NCBI RefSeq assembly: GCF_034347425.1
Contig: NZ_CP133779.1
Span: 4,464,001-4,528,000 of the forward strand
Length of the DNA stretch: 64,000 bases
Source of the DNA: Undibacterium sp. CCC3.4
GTDB lineage: Bacteria; Pseudomonadota; Gammaproteobacteria; Burkholderiales; Burkholderiaceae_D
Direction of reading: 5' to 3'
Below, one piece after another: positions 3,410-14,152 of this stretch. Position numbers and translations under genes: made by a program. How positions within the stretch are numbered: position 1 is the stretch's first letter; each line of letters begins with the position of its first letter. The notes under the pieces were generated by a model. That model searched no databases, was not told where the DNA came from, and saw only the letters and a list, made by a program, of their open reading frames with translations.

Positions 3410-3485
3410 TCCCTGATAGCTCAGTTGGTAGAGCGACGGACTGTTAATCCGCAGGTCCCTGGTTCGAGTCCAGGTCGGGGAGCCA
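3410..3485 (+). tRNA. tRNA-Asn (GTT), copy 1
   Basis: A 76-base cloverleaf with a 7-bp acceptor stem (TCCCTGA with TCGGGGA), anticodon GTT at 3443-3445 in the loop CTGTTAA, T-arm GGTTCGAGTCC and an encoded CCA end. Its sequence is identical to the copy at 3584. Confidence 0.98.
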
Positions 3486-3583: not shown

Positions 3584-3659
3584 TCCCTGATAGCTCAGTT
3601 GGTAGAGCGACGGACTGTTAATCCGCAGGTCCCTGGTTCGAGTCCAGGTCGGGGAGCCA
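3584..3659 (+). tRNA. tRNA-Asn (GTT), copy 2
   Basis: Identical over all 76 bases, including the CCA end, to the copy at 3410. The 98 bases between the copies differ from the other flanks and show no promoter comparable to 3369-3397, so both are probably processed from one transcript that ends at the hairpin at 3667. Confidence 0.98.
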
Positions 3660-6964: not shown

Positions 6965-9391
6965 TCAACGCAGCTTGGCAGCAAATTTCTGGGCTGCTGC
7001 ATCAACAAATGCCTGCATCGCCGCCTCTACCCTGTCGTCTTGCAAGGTAGTTTGAGTATCTTGCAAGCTAAAGCGGAATGCAAGACTTTTCTCATCGGCT
7101 TCCAAACCCTTGCCGCGATATTCATCAAACAAAACAAGCGCTTGCATGATCTTACACGCATCAAGCTCGCGCGCTGCCAGAGCGAATACATCGCGCATTT
7201 CTTGCACGCTCACCGACTCTTTGACTACCAAAGCCAAATCGCGGGTAACAACCGGAAACTTGGAAATTTCTTGATAAGTCGGCAATTTTACCGCCTGCAA
7301 AGCCAGCGTATCGACTTCGAATACCACCGGTGCCAGAGGCAAATCATATTTCTGCTGCCAACGTGGGTGCAACTCGCCGATCATACCGATAGTTTGACCA
7401 TCACATTCTATCGTCGCACTGCGGCCAGGATGCAAAGCCGGATGCTCAAGTTTGATAAAACGCAAAGTCTGCGGCGCAAACAAGGCCTCCAAATCAGCCT
7501 TGATATCGAAGAAATCGACATGGCGTGCGCTGGTGCCCCACTGCTCTTCGGTCACCGGACCATACGCCATGGCGCACAAACGTTTCGGTTGATGATAGCC
7601 GGCCACCGTCAAGGGACCATCGAGCACCTGCGCATCGCGCAAATACACGGTACCGATTTCAAACACGCGCACGCGATTGATCTTGCGGTTGAGGTTATAG
7701 CGAACATTGGCAACCAAACTGCCGATCAAATTACTGCGCATCACACTCATCTGGCTGGCGATAGGATTCAACAAGCGCACCGGCGTCGTGTTGGCAGCAA
7801 AATCCTGCTCCCACGCTTCTTCGACAAAACTGTAATTGATCACTTCCTGATAATCCTGGTCCGCGATCAGGCGGCGCACCGCAAACAGCGAACGGGTATG
7901 TTCGGGCGCGATGAGCATGGCATGCGCCGCTACCGGTGGCAAGGCAGGAATGTTCTCGAAGCCGTAGACACGCGCGACTTCTTCAATCAAATCCTCTTCA
8001 ATTTCCAAGTCGAAACGGAATGAAGGCGGCGTCACCGAAAACACACCGGGCGTTTGCGTGAATTGCAAACCCAGACGCGTGAAGATATCGGCAATAAGCG
8101 CATCAGTCAAAGGCACGCCGATGACTTTCTGCGCGCGTGCGGTGCGCAAGGCAACCGGATTACGCAGCGGCAGATTAATGATCTGATCATCGACCGGACC
8201 GAGCTTGACTTGCTCACTGCCGCCGCAAATAGCGACGATCAGGGCAGAAATTCTTTCGATGTCGGCGACAATGTTTTCGAAATCGACGCCGCGTTCAAAC
8301 CTGTGGGCGGCATCGGTAGAGAAATTGAAATGCCGACCGCGCCCCTGTATCGCGTGCGGCCACCAGAATGCCGCTTCGAGATAAATATTCTGTGTATCCA
8401 AATCGACTGCCGTCGAGTCACCACCCATGATACCGGCCAGCGATTCGAGCTGCTGCGCATCGGCGATCACGCCTATCCATTCATCGACCGCGACGGTATT
8501 GCCATTCAAGAGCTTGAGCGTTTCACCAGCCTTACCCCAACGGACTTCCAAGCCACCATGAATTTTATCGAGATCAAATACATGCGATGGCCGTCCGAGC
8601 TCAAGCATGACGTAATTCGAGATATCGACCAAGGCCGAGATCGAGCGCTGACCACTGCGTTCCAGCCGCTGCTTCATCCACTCCGGCGTCGCCGCTTTGG
8701 CATTGACACCGCGTATCACGCGGCCGCAAAAGCGTCCGCATAAATCCGGCGCGCTCACTGTGACCGGCAATATTTCGCTCAGCGTGCTGGCGACGATTGC
8801 GCTGCTCGGCGCTTGCAAAGGCGTGCCGGTCAACGCCGACACTTCACGTGCTACACCTAGCACAGACAAGCAATCGGCCTTGTTCGGGGTGAGCTTAATC
8901 GTGAATTTCAAATCATTGAGCAGATAGTAATCACGGAAATCTTGACCGACCGGCGCATCGGCCGGCAACTCCATCAAACCGCCATGCTCTTCCGATAATT
9001 TCAATTCACGTGCCGAACACAGCATGCCTTGCGACTCGACGCCGCGCAAGTTACCGACCTTGATTTCAAACGGTTTGCCATCCGCACCAGGCGGCAGCAC
9101 GGCACCGGCCTTAGCGCAGGGCACACGCATGCCGACCCGGACATTCGGCGCACCGCAGACGATAGTGAGCAAGCTCGCGCCGCCTACATCAACCTGACAA
9201 ATATTGAGACGGTCAGCATCGGGATGTTTGGCGATTTCACGAATTTCCGCCACCACCACATCATTGAAAGGAGGAGCCACCGGCTCGACTGCTTCGACTT
9301 CCAGGCCCGACATCGTCAACAGATGCGACAGTTGATCCGACGACAAGGCCGGATTGACCATAGTACGTAGCCAGTTTTCAGAAAATTGCAT
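6965..9391 (-). CDS. pheT: Phenylalanine-tRNA ligase beta subunit
   Basis: An 808-residue beta chain of the alpha2-beta2 PheRS. It begins [14 protein letters not shown], has the N-terminal EMAP/OB tRNA-binding domain (about 40-150), the B3/B4 editing module, the B5 domain, the catalytic-like core and the C-terminal anticodon-binding FDX-ACB domain ([18 protein letters not shown]). Length is typical. It lies 54 bases after pheS and 43 bases before the ihfA start. Confidence 0.97.
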
Positions 9392-9445
9392 AATTCAGCC
9401 GTCTAAAATGTGGGAAATCCGAACGCCAGCGGCGTTCGGAATAAA

Positions 9446-10462
9446 TTAGTTGAATTGCTTGAGAAAGCGTAAATCGCCTTCGTAAAACAGCCGCAAATCG
9501 GCCACGCCGTAACGCAGCATCGTCAAGCGCTCGAGGCCGGAGCCGAACGCAAAGCCGATATACACTTCCGGATCGAGTCCCATGTTGCGGATCACACCAG
9601 GATGCACCTGCCCGGAACCCGACACTTCGAGCCAACGCCCCTTGAGTGGACCACTGCCGAAAGCAATGTCGATCTCAGCCGAGGGTTCGGTAAACGGGAA
9701 ATACGAAGGACGAAAACGGACCTCAAGATCATCGGTTTCAAAGAATGCCCGCACGAAGTTCAGATATACGCCTTTCAGATCGGCGAAACTGATGTCTTCA
9801 GCAATCCACAAACCTTCCACCTGATGAAACATCGGCGAATGGGTAGCGTCGCTGTCGACCCGGTAAGTACGACCCGGCGCGATCACTTTAATCGGTGGCT
9901 TATTCATGCGCGCATAGCGCACCTGCATAGGGCTGGTATGCGTGCGCAATAACAGTTGCTTACCTTCGCTATCTTTGCCATCGACGTAAAAGGTATCCTG
10001 CATCGAGCGCGCCGGATGGTTCTCCGGGCTATTCAAGGCAGTAAAGTTAGTCCAGTCAGTTTCGATTTCGGGGCCATCAGCCACATCAAAACCGATAGAG
10101 CGGAAAATTTCCTCAACCCGCTGCCAGGTCCGCATCACTGGATGTATCCCGCCGACACTGCGGCCACGACCCGGCAAACTCACGTCGATCGCTTCGGCAT
10201 TGAGCCGGCTTTGTAATTGCGCATCCGCGAGCGCATCGCGGCGCGCGGTCAAGGCATTTTCAATTTGTACTTTGGCGGCATTGATGATGGCGCCCTGAAT
10301 CTTGCGTTCGTCTTGGCTGAAACTGCCCAGACTTTTCATTTGTTGTGTGATCTGGCCACTCTTGCCCAGATATAAGGCTTTCGCATTTTCCAGCGCAGCG
10401 GCATCCGTTGCGGCGAGAAAATCAGAGCTGGCTTGGCTGACGATTTGATCTAAAGGGTTCAT
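9446..10462 (-). CDS. pheS: Phenylalanine-tRNA ligase alpha subunit
   Basis: A 338-residue class II aminoacyl-tRNA synthetase catalytic subunit. It has an N-terminal coiled-coil (residues 1-90), then motif 2 around [20 protein letters not shown] and motif 3 [19 protein letters not shown]. It attaches phenylalanine to tRNA-Phe together with PheT. The start [10 protein letters not shown] at 10462 matches the family; an in-frame start at 10528 would add 22 residues and run through the upstream terminator hairpin, so it is rejected. Confidence 0.97.
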
Positions 10463-10502
10463 GCGTTGGTCCCGCTTACTCTGAAGCTGAAATAATGAGC
10501 TC

Positions 10503-10539
10503 AAAACAAAACGGGGCATAGGAATCAACCTCTGCCCCG
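10503..10539 (-). terminator. Intrinsic terminator/attenuator between rplT and pheS
   Basis: A 7-bp GC-rich stem (CGGGGCA with TGCCCCG, 14-base loop) followed in the minus direction by TTTTGTTTT. Just upstream (about 10547-10571) is a second long hairpin, ATGCATGGCGC with GCGCCGTGCAT. It lies 40 bases before the pheS start, so it would end much of the infC-rpmI-rplT transcription and limit read-through into pheST. I found no Phe-rich leader peptide. Confidence 0.7.
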
Positions 10540-10588
10540 CCTGATAGATGCACGGCGCAGCGCGCCATGCATACGACTAACGATTACT

Positions 10589-10948
10589 TCACGCAGCCAA
10601 TGTTGCTTTGACTTGATTGACAATCGCGGCGAAAGCCGGTTTGTCCATCACTGCCATGTCAGCCAGGACTTTACGGTCGAGTTCGATCGAAGCTTTTTTC
10701 AAGCCATTCATGAACACGCTGTAAGTCAAACCATGCTGACGCGATGCGGCGTTGATACGTGTGATCCACAATGCGCGGAATACACGTTTCTTGTTGCGAC
10801 GATCACGGTAAGCGTATTGACCAGCGCGCATAACTGCTTGCTTGGCAACACGGTAAACCTTACTGCGACGACCGCGGTAACCTTTGGCAAGGTCAAGAAC
10901 TTTTTTATGACGGGCACGAGCAGTAACCCCACGTTTTACTCTAGGCAT
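10589..10948 (-). CDS. rplT: 50S ribosomal protein L20
   Basis: A 119-residue basic protein starting [20 protein letters not shown], with the conserved [20 protein letters not shown] and [17 protein letters not shown] segments. It binds 23S rRNA and is needed for early 50S assembly; in E. coli it also represses translation of rpmI-rplT. It follows rpmI by 28 bases. Confidence 0.98.
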
Positions 10949-10976
10949 AGTAACTCCTTAAATAATGAGTATGAGG

Positions 10977-11174
10977 TTAAGCTGTAGGCATCATGCGCAT
11001 GACCGATACCATGTTGGTGTCATGAACACCCACGGAACCGCGCAACTGACGTTTGTTTTTGGTTGTTTTCTTAGTCAAGATATGACGTTTGAAAGCTTGA
11101 CCGCGTTTAACAGTACCACCCGGGCGCACGCGAAAACGTTTTTTCGCACTGCTTTTGGTCTTCATTTTTGGCAT
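10977..11174 (-). CDS. rpmI: 50S ribosomal protein L35
   Basis: A 65-residue basic protein starting [20 protein letters not shown] and ending [21 protein letters not shown], the normal L35 layout. The start at 11174 is chosen over an in-frame upstream codon because of family alignment. A small hairpin with a GCAA loop (11182-11195) sits immediately before the start codon. Confidence 0.97.
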
Positions 11175-11328
11175 AGCATATCTGTCTTGCGACAGTTCCA
11201 CTTATATATGATGGTAGGTGGCAGCAAAGCACGCTGCTCTTGGATGCCTACTTCTCACTTATTGTGAGCGGCGCAAGCGCCGCTCGATCGCACCACCGGC
11301 AAACCGGCAGCACAAAATCAGGTACAAC
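11175..11328 (-). promoter_or_regulatory. Structured infC-rpmI leader, candidate L20 autoregulatory site
   Basis: A 154-base spacer rich in stems. In the minus direction it contains GAGCGGCG-CTTG-CGCCGCTC (11266-11285), GCAGC/GCTGC near 11221, and CTGTC-GCAA-GACAG (11182-11195) just before the rpmI ATG and after a weak GGAA. L20-mediated control of rpmI-rplT through leader RNA structure is known in E. coli and Firmicutes; that this element does the same is inference. Confidence 0.4.
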
Positions 11329-11850
11329 TTATTTCTTTTTCTTCGGTGCCAGAATCATGACCATCTGACGACCTTCCATCTTCGGAAACTGCTCAACTTG
11401 ACCGTAAGCATCAAGATCAACCTTCAGACGCTCAAGCACACGCATACCGATTTCTTGATGAGCCATTTCACGTCCGCGGAAACGCAGAGTGATTTTGGTT
11501 TTATCGCCCTCATCGAGAAACTTGATCAGATTACGGACTTTGATGTTGTAATCGCCGTCATCAGTACCAGGGCGGAACTTCACCTCTTTCACCAAAACAA
11601 TTTTCTGCTTCAGTTTGGCTTCATGAGCTTTCTTTTGCTCTTGATATTTAAACTTGCCGTAATCCATTATACGACAAACAGGCGGTTGCGCAGTTGGTGC
11701 AATCTCCACCAAATCCACATTAGCCTCTTCGGCCAGGCGGAAAGCTTCGGCCAATTTGACGATACCCAATGGCTCATTATCAACACCAGACAAACGCACT
11801 TCAGGTGCGGTGACTTCTCCGTTGATACGATGTGTTCTTTCGGTAGCTAT
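11329..11850 (-). CDS. infC: Translation initiation factor IF-3, ATA start codon
   Basis: A 173-residue IF-3 with N-domain ([36 protein letters not shown]), lysine-rich linker, and C-domain ([35 protein letters not shown]). IF-3 binds the 30S subunit and rejects non-canonical start codons and wrong initiator pairing. The family N-terminus (ATERTHRIN) is preceded by ATA at 11850-11848 with a good AAAGGAAA ribosome-binding site 5 bases upstream. An upstream ATG at 11904 would add a poorly conserved 18 residues. A rare start codon at infC is the known basis of IF-3 autoregulation (AUU in E. coli). Confidence 0.94.
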
Positions 11851-11921
11851 TGCAGTTTCCTTTAAAAAATAAAATCTTGACCATGCTATATTGCATAAAA
11901 GCAATATTGCCGACTCATCTG

Positions 11922-13829
11922 TTAAACCTTGGCAGCGATCTCGTCTTTCAGACGAGCGATGAAGGCATCCAGAGGCATCACCCCGAGATCCAGATTGCCA
12001 CGCGTACGCACAGCGACTGTGTTGGCATCCCGCTCTTTATCACCAATCACGAGGATGTAAGGTAATTTCTGAAGAGAATGCTCGCGTATTTTATAGGTAA
12101 TCTTCTCATTACGCAAATCGGTATTTACTCTAAACCCTTGTTTCTTTAGGATTTCCGCAACAGAACGGCTATATTCAGACTGTGATTCAGAGATATTCAA
12201 GACCGATACCTGCATCGGAGCCAACCACAAAGGCATGGCACCAGCATGATTTTCAATCAAGATGCCGATAAAACGTTCCATCGAGCCGACTATCGCCCGA
12301 TGCAACATGATCGGTGTCTGGCGTGAATTATCATCGGAAACATATTCTGCTTCCAAGCGGGTAGGCATGAAGAAATCGACCTGCATGGTACCGACTTGCC
12401 ATGGACGACCGAGACTATCTTTGAGATGGTATTCGATCTTCGGGCCGTAAAACGCCCCTTCGCCCGGCAACTCTTCCCAACTCACGCCACACTGCGTGAG
12501 TGCCGCACGCAAAGTCGCCTCGGCGCGATCCCAAGTCTCATCGGAACCGATACGATTTTCAGGGCGCAGCGCCAGCTTGACAAAAATATTCTTAAAATCA
12601 AAATCTTTATACACCTGCATCGCCTGCGAGTGAAATGCCACCACTTCATCAAGAATTTGCTCTTCGGTACAGAAGATATGACCATCATCTTGGGTAAAGC
12701 CGCGCACACGCATAATGCCGTGCAAAGCACCGGATGGTTCATTGCGATGACACTGACCGAATTCACCGAAACGCAGTGGCAATTCACGGTAACTGCGCAT
12801 ATCCGAATTGAAAATCTGTATGTGGCCGGGGCAATTCATCGGCTTCAAGGCATAGTGGCGGTTTTCCGACTCAGTCGTAAACATTCCCTCGCGGTAATTC
12901 TGCCAATGGCCGGTTTTTTCCCACAGACTGACATCGAGAATCTGCGGACCCTTCACTTCTTGGTAGCCGCAGTCCTGATACACCTTGCGCATGTATTGTT
13001 CAACCTGTTGCCAAATAGTCCAACCCTTGGCGTGCCAGAACACCAGACCCGGCGCCTCATCTTGGAAATGGAACAAATCGAGCTGCTTGGCGAGCTTGCG
13101 ATGATCGCGTTTCTCTGCTTCTTCCAGCATATGCAGGTAGGCTTCTTGATCTTCTTTTTTGGCAAACGCCGTGCCATAGATACGCTGCAGCATTTCATTC
13201 TTCGAATCGCCACGCCAGTAAGCACCGGCCAACTTCATGAGCTTGAAGACTTTCAGCTTACCGGTCGAAGGGACGTGCGGGCCACGACACAGATCGGTGA
13301 AACTGCCTTCCGAGTACAGCGACACATCTTGATCAGCCGGAATCGAGGCGATGATTTCAGCCTTATACGCCTCACCAATGCCAGTGAAGTAAGCGACCGC
13401 CTCATCACGCGCCAAGACTTGACGCGTAATCGGCTCATCCTTCTTGGCCAGCTCGAGCATTTTCTTTTCTATCGCCAGCAAATCTTCCGGCGTAAACGGG
13501 CGCTTGTACGAAAAATCGTAGTAAAAACCGTTTTCAATCACCGGACCGATGGTTACCTGCGCCTCTGGAAACAAGGATTTGACTGCATAGGCCAGCAAAT
13601 GCGCGGTCGAGTGACGAATCACTTCCAAACCATCGGCATCTTTATCGGTGACGATGGCCAGCGCGACATCGGTCCCGATCAGATACGAGGTATCGACCAA
13701 CTTGCCATCGACACGACCGGCCAAGGCGGCCTTGGCCAAACCGGCACCAATGCTCGCCGCAACCTGCGCCACCGTGACCGGCGCATCGAATTGTCGTTGC
13801 GAACCATCAGGAAGTTTTACTGAGACCAT
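11922..13829 (-). CDS. thrS: Threonine-tRNA ligase
   Basis: A 635-residue class II synthetase. It has an N-terminal TGS domain ([14 protein letters not shown]), an editing domain with the [12 protein letters not shown] zinc-site motif and [14 protein letters not shown], a catalytic core with [10 protein letters not shown] and [14 protein letters not shown], and an anticodon-binding domain. ATG at 13829 has GGAGAG 6 bases upstream; a TTG at 13841 is an unlikely alternative. It heads the thrS-infC-rpmI-rplT-pheST-ihfA-merR operon. The 5' region carries an intrinsic terminator and a Thr-rich leader ORF, pointing to attenuation. Confidence 0.98.
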
Positions 13830-13894: not shown

Positions 13895-13925
13895 AAAAAA
13901 AAGCACGGCTATAGCCGTGCTTTTT
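13895..13925 (-). terminator. Intrinsic terminator in the thrS leader (attenuator candidate)
   Basis: The core stem GCACGGC-TATA-GCCGTGC (13903-13920) is extended by A:T pairs and followed in the minus direction by eight T residues. It sits 65 bases before the thrS ATG and 30 bases after the Thr-rich leader ORF. It could simply end tRNA-Val transcription, but its position relative to the leader ORF fits a transcription attenuator. Confidence 0.85.
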
Positions 13926-13955
13926 CTTTAATTTGATGACGAAAAAGATCCTCGA

Positions 13956-14000
13956 CTAGAGTCGCTTGCTAACCAGTTGCGTGGTAGTTCGCGGTGTCAT
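13956..14000 (-). CDS. Putative threonine leader peptide of the thrS operon
   Basis: A 14-codon ORF reading MTPRTTTQLVSKRL and ending in TAG. Four codons are Thr, and all four Thr codons are used once (ACA at position 2, then ACT ACC ACG in a row at 5-7). A GAGAAAGG ribosome-binding site lies 10 bases before the ATG, a little far but usable. Thirty bases after the stop lies the thrS-leader terminator. This is the layout of ribosome-mediated attenuators such as thrL in E. coli, here placed before a synthetase gene. It is too short for gene finders. Translation and control are inferred, not shown. Confidence 0.65.
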   Translation of the reverse strand: MTPRTTTQLVSKRL

Positions 14001-14036
14001 AACCAGGATGCCTTTCTCGCTCTTATCTAAAATGGT

Positions 14037-14075: not shown

Positions 14076-14152
14076 TGGTGGGCGGTGCAGAATTCGAATC
14101 TGCGACCCCTTGGATGTCGACCAAGTATTCTAACCAGCTGAACTAACCGCCC
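14076..14152 (-). tRNA. tRNA-Val (GAC) with C at position 33
   Basis: A 77-base cloverleaf with encoded CCA. Acceptor stem GGGCGGT/ACCGCCC, D-stem GTTC/GAAT, perfect anticodon stem CTTGG/CCAAG and T-arm GCAGATTCGAATTCTGC. The seven-base anticodon loop reads TCGACAT, so the anticodon is GAC (14116-14118) and position 33 is C, not the near-universal U. Discriminator A73 agrees with valine identity. It lies between relA and the thrS leader and may be co-transcribed with the latter. Confidence 0.9.

Follow-up and report, generated by a model that had tools for sequence, protein, structure and literature searches.

The threonine-rich reading frame and terminator ahead of thrS in Undibacterium sp. 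CCC3.4 very probably form a ribosome-mediated leader-peptide transcription attenuator that senses charged tRNA-Thr, in which translation of the leader, stalling of the ribosome and a change in read-through into thrS are the predicted steps. Ribosome-mediated attenuation had been proposed from the letters of one stretch of this genome (the window; 64,000 nucleotides, NZ_CP133779.1, positions 4,464,001 to 4,528,000), and the reading is supported by conservation of the ORF and its Thr run, by enrichment for Thr and by competing stems. Our computations show a conserved ORF, Thr-specific codons, a terminator, and alternative pairings that fit one another across species.

On the minus strand of the window, the order is a RelA/SpoT-family gene, tRNA-Val(GAC), the leader, thrS, infC, rpmI, rplT, pheS and pheT (Table 1). 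The order thrS-infC-rpmI-rplT-pheST given in the original prediction was recovered, each gene being matched by NCBIfam models, and thrS is presumably co-transcribed with infC-rpmI-rplT-pheS-pheT. The tRNA-Val transcript may also feed the leader in the lineage of the window. The described leader (a 14-codon ORF with ACA and then ACT-ACC-ACG, a Shine-Dalgarno (SD) site and a stop) was verified on the minus strand at all coordinates, as was a terminator with eight T residues whose hairpin starts 30 bases past the leader stop and which lies 65 bases before the thrS ATG. The terminator arms are AAAAAGCACGGC and GCCGTGCTTTTT, with the hairpin at 13925-13898 and the eight T at 13902-13895. A consensus terminator scanner reported this near-palindromic hairpin on the plus strand only, probably because the stem on the minus strand takes up most of the T residues; the assignment to the minus strand is based on sequence and folding rather than on the scanner. 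A consensus promoter scan of the 65 bases between terminator and thrS in the window found none, although a gap of this length makes a second promoter possible.

Table 1. Features of the thrS leader locus in the window (positions are those of the window).
Feature	Position	Strand	Basis or remark
Leader ORF MTPRTTTQLVSKRL, 14 codons and stop	14000-13956 (ATG 14000, TAG 13958-13956)	minus	sequence
Control codons ACT-ACC-ACG (Thr 5-7)	13980..13988	minus	sequence
Additional Thr codon ACA	13997-13995	minus	sequence
Rare Arg codon CGA, immediately ahead of Thr run	13989..13991	minus	near-invariant
GAGAAAGG, likely Shine-Dalgarno site	14011..14018, 10 bases 5' of ATG	minus	invariant or nearly so in 46-sequence alignment
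Intrinsic terminator, 12-bp stem, 4-base loop, eight T	13895..13925	minus	fold -17.5 kcal/mol
Strand A, SD region	14005..14020	minus	fold; A:B swap test, 47 leaders, z -6.0
Strand B, stop codon and next bases	13941..13958	minus	fold; B:C swap test, 47 leaders, z -3.2
Strand C, GAAAAAG (13926-13920) and CGGCTA (13917-13912)	13912..13926	minus	terminator 5' arm and loop; antiterminator partner of B
RelA/SpoT-family gene	16558-14282	minus	same-strand neighbour of tRNA-Val and thrS
tRNA-Val(GAC)	14076..14152	minus	ARAGORN and Rfam; gene upstream of leader
thrS, threonine--tRNA ligase, regulated gene	11922..13829 (ATG 13829)	minus	NCBIfam TIGR00418
infC, rpmI, rplT, pheS, pheT	6965..11904, downstream of thrS	minus	NCBIfam models

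In the proposed mechanism, RNA polymerase would transcribe the leader and a ribosome would translate the 14-codon peptide. With plentiful Thr-tRNA, the ribosome would reach the stop codon and cover strand B, so that the terminator would form and transcription would end before thrS. If no ribosome has loaded, the SD region would hold B in a protector stem and the terminator would form too. When Thr-tRNA is scarce, the ribosome would stall at ACT-ACC-ACG and leave B free to capture the terminator 5' arm; the resulting antiterminator (TAGTCG:CGGCTA plus CTTTTTC:GAAAAAG) would allow polymerase to enter thrS and probably the genes beyond.

Folding of the leader for competing stems had been suggested as a check, and such stems exist, respond to ribosome position as predicted and, as a set, beat shuffled and swapped controls. 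The window RNA was folded as far as the terminator loop with nearest-neighbour energies, on the assumption that the ribosome covers 13 bases counted from the start of the A-site codon. Without a ribosome (-25.1 kcal/mol overall), the SD strand is bound to 13952-13939 and the terminator arm is free; in this protector stem, GCGAGAAAG (14020-14012) pairs with 13947-13939 and ATCCT (14009-14005) with 13952-13948. With the A site at codon 5, TAGTCG (13958-13953) pairs with CGGCTA (13917-13912) and CTTTTTC (13947-13941) with GAAAAAG (13926-13920), at -9.7 kcal/mol, and a ribosome on the stop codon leaves only -1.4 kcal/mol of structure. The modelled probability that the C arm is captured in the window is 0.74 at the Thr stall and 0.04 both at the stop and without a ribosome; means over 75 leaders are 0.73, 0.48 and 0.46, respectively.

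Dinucleotide shuffles of the spacer (60 per locus, with one of the 75 loci dropped for its short spacer) were used to judge the gain in pairing at the stall relative to the stop. Of 74 loci, 25 had a gain with p ≤ 0.05 (against 3.7 expected; mean z -1.08) and the other 49 lay above that threshold singly, and stall energy alone reached it in 10 of the 74. The window itself is borderline, with a shuffle rank of 0.05 for stall minus stop and 0.12 for stall energy. The modelled antiterminator is equally strong at the stop and at Thr in some loci (e.g. L207, L085 and L048), and a few (L048, L167 and L050) show the opposite stall-minus-stop trend. By computed folding, the Thr stall frees an antiterminator that stays blocked when the ribosome is on the stop codon or absent, although this does not hold in every locus singly. 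RNAalifold applied to the 46-sequence family alignment gave no consensus antiterminator, perhaps because spacer lengths vary, and for this reason per-sequence folding with ribosome positions was combined with partner swaps.

For the swaps, strands were exchanged among 47 non-redundant leaders and row and column means were removed; the set was reduced from 75 leaders to 59 by dropping most same-genus members, to 48 for redundancy and to 47 for length. Strands paired better with their own partners than with swapped ones for both B:C (4 of 5,000 permutations as good) and A:B (0 of 5,000), with the z values given in Table 1. No such excess was seen for the control pairings, namely A:C (z 0.1), the 40 bases upstream with C (z +1.9, own partners being weaker) and the middle of the ORF with C (z 0.8, 33 loci). 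Own partners exceeded the median swap in 29 of 47 loci for B:C and 32 of 47 for A:B, and the A:C control gave 27 of 47, so that a subset of loci carries the swap effect. Strand B also contains a complement of the CGAAC core (GTTCG, GTCG or GTCCG, a motif set picked after inspection) in 36 of 52 loci (shuffled expectation 14.0), where the 52 are those of 65 non-redundant loci with CGAAC in the ORF and sufficient spacer. The duplex between B and the CGAAC core has a mean z of -0.95 over these 52 loci, and its occurrence implies that the Arg-Thr codons themselves serve as a pairing strand in several distant leaders. The corresponding duplex of the window is weak (z 0.2), and it is the SD strand that acts there.

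Conservation within the genus is extensive. A thrS match was obtained for 40 of 43 genomes (source genome included), and 37 of the 40 upstream regions were analysed, two truncated genes and one other match being left out. All 37 carry the adjacent tRNA-Val, the block GAGCGAGAAAGG..GGTTATGACACCGCGAACTA, an ORF starting MTPRTT and, judged by eye, a terminator hairpin with a T run. In the 46-sequence family alignment, the sole gap within the ORF is of three bases. The suggestion that the leader uses all four Thr codons so as to sense all isoacceptors did not hold as a conserved design, given that only 9 of the 37 same-genus leaders contain all four and the other 28 contain three. Across the order, an 18-mer at the core of the leader occurs (≤1 mismatch) in 53 of 399 genomes and 30 of 164 genera, as a single copy each time; the reversed pattern, used as a control, had one match in the same 399 genomes. 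The core lies upstream of thrS on the same strand in 52 of the 53 genomes. A tblastn check placed thrS 117-284 bases downstream of the core on the same strand in 44 of 45 genomes, and gene coordinates placed the core just upstream of thrS in the other eight. The one exception (L279) has a core with a mismatch and no thrS within 1.5 kb. Recurrence of the core, together with the block before thrS in all 37 same-genus regions analysed, indicates more than chance.

A wider comparison covered 245 upstream regions, comprising the 37 genus regions, 80 from named genomes (a few outside the order, e.g. Lysobacterales) and 128 from an order sample (197 genomes with thrS, from which 128 new regions were taken in addition to L005 and L016, already in the set). 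Burkholderiales is used here as the GTDB order, which includes groups such as Chromobacteriaceae. Loci were scored by a relaxed rule, which asks for a downstream terminator and an ORF with either RT and one more Thr or three Thr within five codons. This rule assigns the element to 36 of the 37 genus loci, 37 of the 80 named ones and 44 of the 128 in the order sample, counts that are non-independent because the leaders are related; a first, stricter classifier had found 25 of the 80 named loci and missed visible leaders. The 84 order-sample loci without the element consist of 4 with a Thr ORF and no such terminator, 58 with a terminator only and 22 with neither; in these 22 (e.g. L128, L168 and L199), we found no leader, terminator or operator-like hairpin before thrS. 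Hence the proposed check, a search for the Thr-rich ORF and terminator in relatives, found the ORF and its Thr run kept in the genus and recurring across the order, where the Thr-leader element is widespread and not universal. Two named loci (L081 and L095, from Lysobacterales and Rhodanobacter records) have the short ORFs MSTTSSQR and MATTRFHC ahead of a hairpin upstream of thrS, which are perhaps related leaders falling below the relaxed rule.

We assessed whether threonine is specifically enriched by scanning short ORFs before the terminator, with tRNA genes masked, for any amino acid occurring three times in five codons. A strict rule detects a terminator-like hairpin ahead of thrS in 189 of 245 regions, and the loci tested were those with a strict-rule terminator (101 of 129 order-sample, 57 of 80 named and 32 of 37 genus loci). 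Thr was enriched in 28 of 101 order-sample loci (runner-up amino acid 7; mean 2.4 and maximum 9 in 100 shuffles), 20 of 57 named loci (runner-up 6; shuffled mean 1.7, maximum 5) and 18 of 32 genus loci (runner-up 1; shuffled mean 0.8, maximum 5), and a reverse-complement control of the order sample gave Thr in 2 of 101. Masking matters, as frames through tRNA-Val otherwise intrude (Val 31, Thr 29 and reverse-complement Thr 14 of 101 without masking; Val 1 and Thr 28 with it). Apart from Thr, no amino acid is strongly enriched in these ORFs. The Thr runs are retained where the flanking sequence is unrelated, and the peptides of distant clades have little else in common: examples are MFKRTTTTRISR (Vogesella, L065), MELSQVKHWRTTTTRHSHAS (Aquitalea, L053, or from an inner GTG start), MFFPPARTTTRNFRPMSR (Achromobacter MAG, L101), MSFRTTTTGTLNLG, MFRTRTTTHR and MNTNTTRTTTTRHT. 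The locus combines a short ORF rich in codons for the regulated amino acid with an intrinsic terminator between that ORF and the structural gene, in the window and in relatives.

The presence of tRNA-Val directly upstream in all 37 same-genus regions, as in the window, raises the question of whether the terminator just ends the tRNA-Val transcript, with the small ORF incidental and a thrS promoter lying between terminator and gene. Gammaproteobacteria outside the order often have tRNA-Val and a hairpin without a Thr leader (by eye), and the 65-base gap in the window could accommodate a promoter. However, of the 82 Thr-leader loci made up of L005 and those outside the genus, 31 have no tRNA-Val within up to 600 bases (29 of the 31 span at least 590 bases), and the gap from terminator to thrS start is under 40 bases in 85 of 189 loci, and in 27 of 75 of the leader set, which leaves little room for a promoter. 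On these two counts, a plain tRNA-Val terminator is very unlikely; moreover, the Thr run of the ORF is maintained, and the stems match their own partners across the stop codon and the terminator, both of which also count against it.

Retention of Thr codons in distant clades, although the RNA flanks change, also weighs against direct binding of the leader RNA by ThrRS or uncharged tRNA-Thr, whereby an E. coli operator-like or T-box-like structure would decide termination and the ORF would be secondary. Nucleotides of GGTTATGACACCGCGAACTAC are strongly conserved past codon needs in several families, as such binding would favour. An anticodon-arm mimic or T-box within the leader was nevertheless rejected: anticodon-arm-like NGU hairpins occur in 2 of 117 leaders, against 2.9 expected in shuffles, T-box-core-like UGGNACC within 330 bases before thrS occurs in 3 of 117 (a count made without a shuffle control), and the Rfam matches include no T-box. 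We regard this explanation, too, as highly improbable. It is also conceivable that the leader does sense stalling and has another main output, such as translational coupling, thrS mRNA stability or a trans-acting small RNA, the terminated leader being a short RNA that might be stable. The strong intrinsic terminator and competing antiterminator point instead to termination control, and the core is single-copy and next to thrS in 52 of 53 genomes, so that we consider such an output extremely unlikely as the principal one.

Attenuation of thrS by a leader peptide would differ from the textbook case of E. coli, in which thrS is subject to translational autorepression and the operator resembles a tRNA anticodon arm. 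As an outgroup, we took the best 28 of 93 thrS matches in class Gammaproteobacteria outside the order (L296-L323), a best-scoring choice that is biased to closer relatives. Among these best 28 of 93, the 300 bases before thrS contain no short ORF with three Thr in a stretch of five codons, and 14 genomes have an E. coli-type operator-like hairpin (loop NGUA, starting 28-70 bases before the start codon), against 0.18 in shuffled sequences. The first operator pattern had matched 7 of these best 28 of 93, and the loop was loosened and the stem tightened after viewing the misses, which gave 14 of 28 and lost L307. The loops are CGU, GGU or AGU, and L318 seems, by eye, to have three such hairpins in tandem. 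The same hairpin occurs in 1 of 117 Thr-leader loci (0 of 36 genus, 0 of 37 named and 1 of 44 order-sample) and, among loci without a Thr leader, in 0 of 1 genus, 1 of 43 named and 0 of 84 order-sample loci. The match in the leader locus (L131) has its stem in a duplicated stretch beyond the terminator, and that in the non-leader locus (L083) is the terminator itself. The outgroup hairpin is a putative ThrRS operator by its likeness to E. coli, as regards both the anticodon mimicry above and the account in the available part of PMC3858243, where the thrS operator is a hairpin recognised by ThrRS to repress translation. The E. coli operator, as described there, and the window leader act on the same gene and share feedback on ThrRS or Thr-tRNA supply; however, the former is a protein-RNA translational repression and the latter would be attenuation.

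The codon that precedes the Thr run is a further feature of the leaders. Of 82 leaders (L005 and those outside the genus), 64 have Arg immediately ahead of the run's first Thr, a count helped by the RT rule, which leaves codon choice free, and the Arg codon is CGA in 62 of these 64. By comparison, CGA accounts for 58 of 1,538 Arg codons in the thrS genes of the named leader-bearing loci. ACT is likewise over-used: in 58 leaders it makes up 75 of the 167 Thr codons close to the Arg, versus 50 of 952 in thrS. Shared ancestry of the leaders means that these codon counts do not represent separate events. Pairing with strand B may explain part of this CGA and ACT bias, and CGA is a candidate for a possible slow-codon role. 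We put forward as a tentative and rather doubtful extension that Burkholderiales largely swapped the ThrRS-operator control of other Gammaproteobacteria for leader attenuation, with CGA-ACU put to triple use as the control codon, as an RNA strand that rivals the terminator arm in binding the stop-codon region, and as a conserved, slowly read codon pacing the ribosome. If true, CGA would be a built-in timing element just before the Thr test; to our knowledge, no such codon timing element is known from classic attenuators. The interest of the system lies in this conserved codon and in the apparent replacement of the textbook operator across much of the order, and recurrence over families of the order suggests that thrS has moved between two unrelated sensors of Thr-tRNA supply. 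The predicted switch has strands that are testable base by base, and the leader is an additional RNA element, unmatched in Rfam, ahead of a cluster with infC, two ribosomal protein genes and pheST.

Ribosome-mediated attenuators regulate amino-acid operons of Proteobacteria (thr, trp, his, leu and pheST), and the window leader shares with these classic systems the amino-acid-rich short ORF, the trio of protector, antiterminator and terminator, and the intrinsic terminator before the gene. Unlike them, it would regulate thrS and has a near-invariant CGA ahead of the control codons. T-box leaders of synthetase genes in Firmicutes control transcription antitermination by tRNA charging state, which would also govern antitermination in the window leader; the latter differs in having no Rfam T-box match, few core motifs and predicted sensing by a translating ribosome. 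No Rfam family reached its gathering score with the window leader, including RF00506 Thr_leader (the 'threonine operon leader'; 22.5 bits, gathering 55). A threonine leader, thrL, before thrS is described for Streptomyces lividans (peptide MKRVRPFLETTPGFVPAR) in the accessible part of PMC8079986, whose authors call termination unclear, with one hairpin and no uridine-rich stretch. It resembles the window leader as a Thr leader peptide before thrS, and differs in belonging to an Actinobacterium and in having, in that account, two Thr and a peptide unrelated to that of the window. Attenuators before Streptomyces trpS and leuS are reported in PMC1262725, in which a word search of the available text did not return thrS; the word is likewise absent from the main text of a survey (PMC2965389), and PMC4833913 makes no mention of thrS. 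Among titles and abstract beginnings in the open literature, a scope that two likely subscription surveys fall outside, no description of a thrS attenuator in Burkholderiales was recognised. The attenuation mechanism is thus known, and the thrS member is one for which no description was found in the open literature.

Several observations concern the tRNA genes of these loci. In 157 of the 245 loci, a tRNA-Val gene is found no more than 600 bases from thrS, as it is, by eye, in many genomes outside the order. In L036, L038 and L073 (Massilia, Janthinobacterium and Duganella), a tandem pair of tRNA-Val(GAC) genes precedes the leader. Elsewhere in the window, two adjacent tRNA-Asn(GTT) genes (3410-3485 and 3584-3659) have an identical Rfam score of 67.6 bits.
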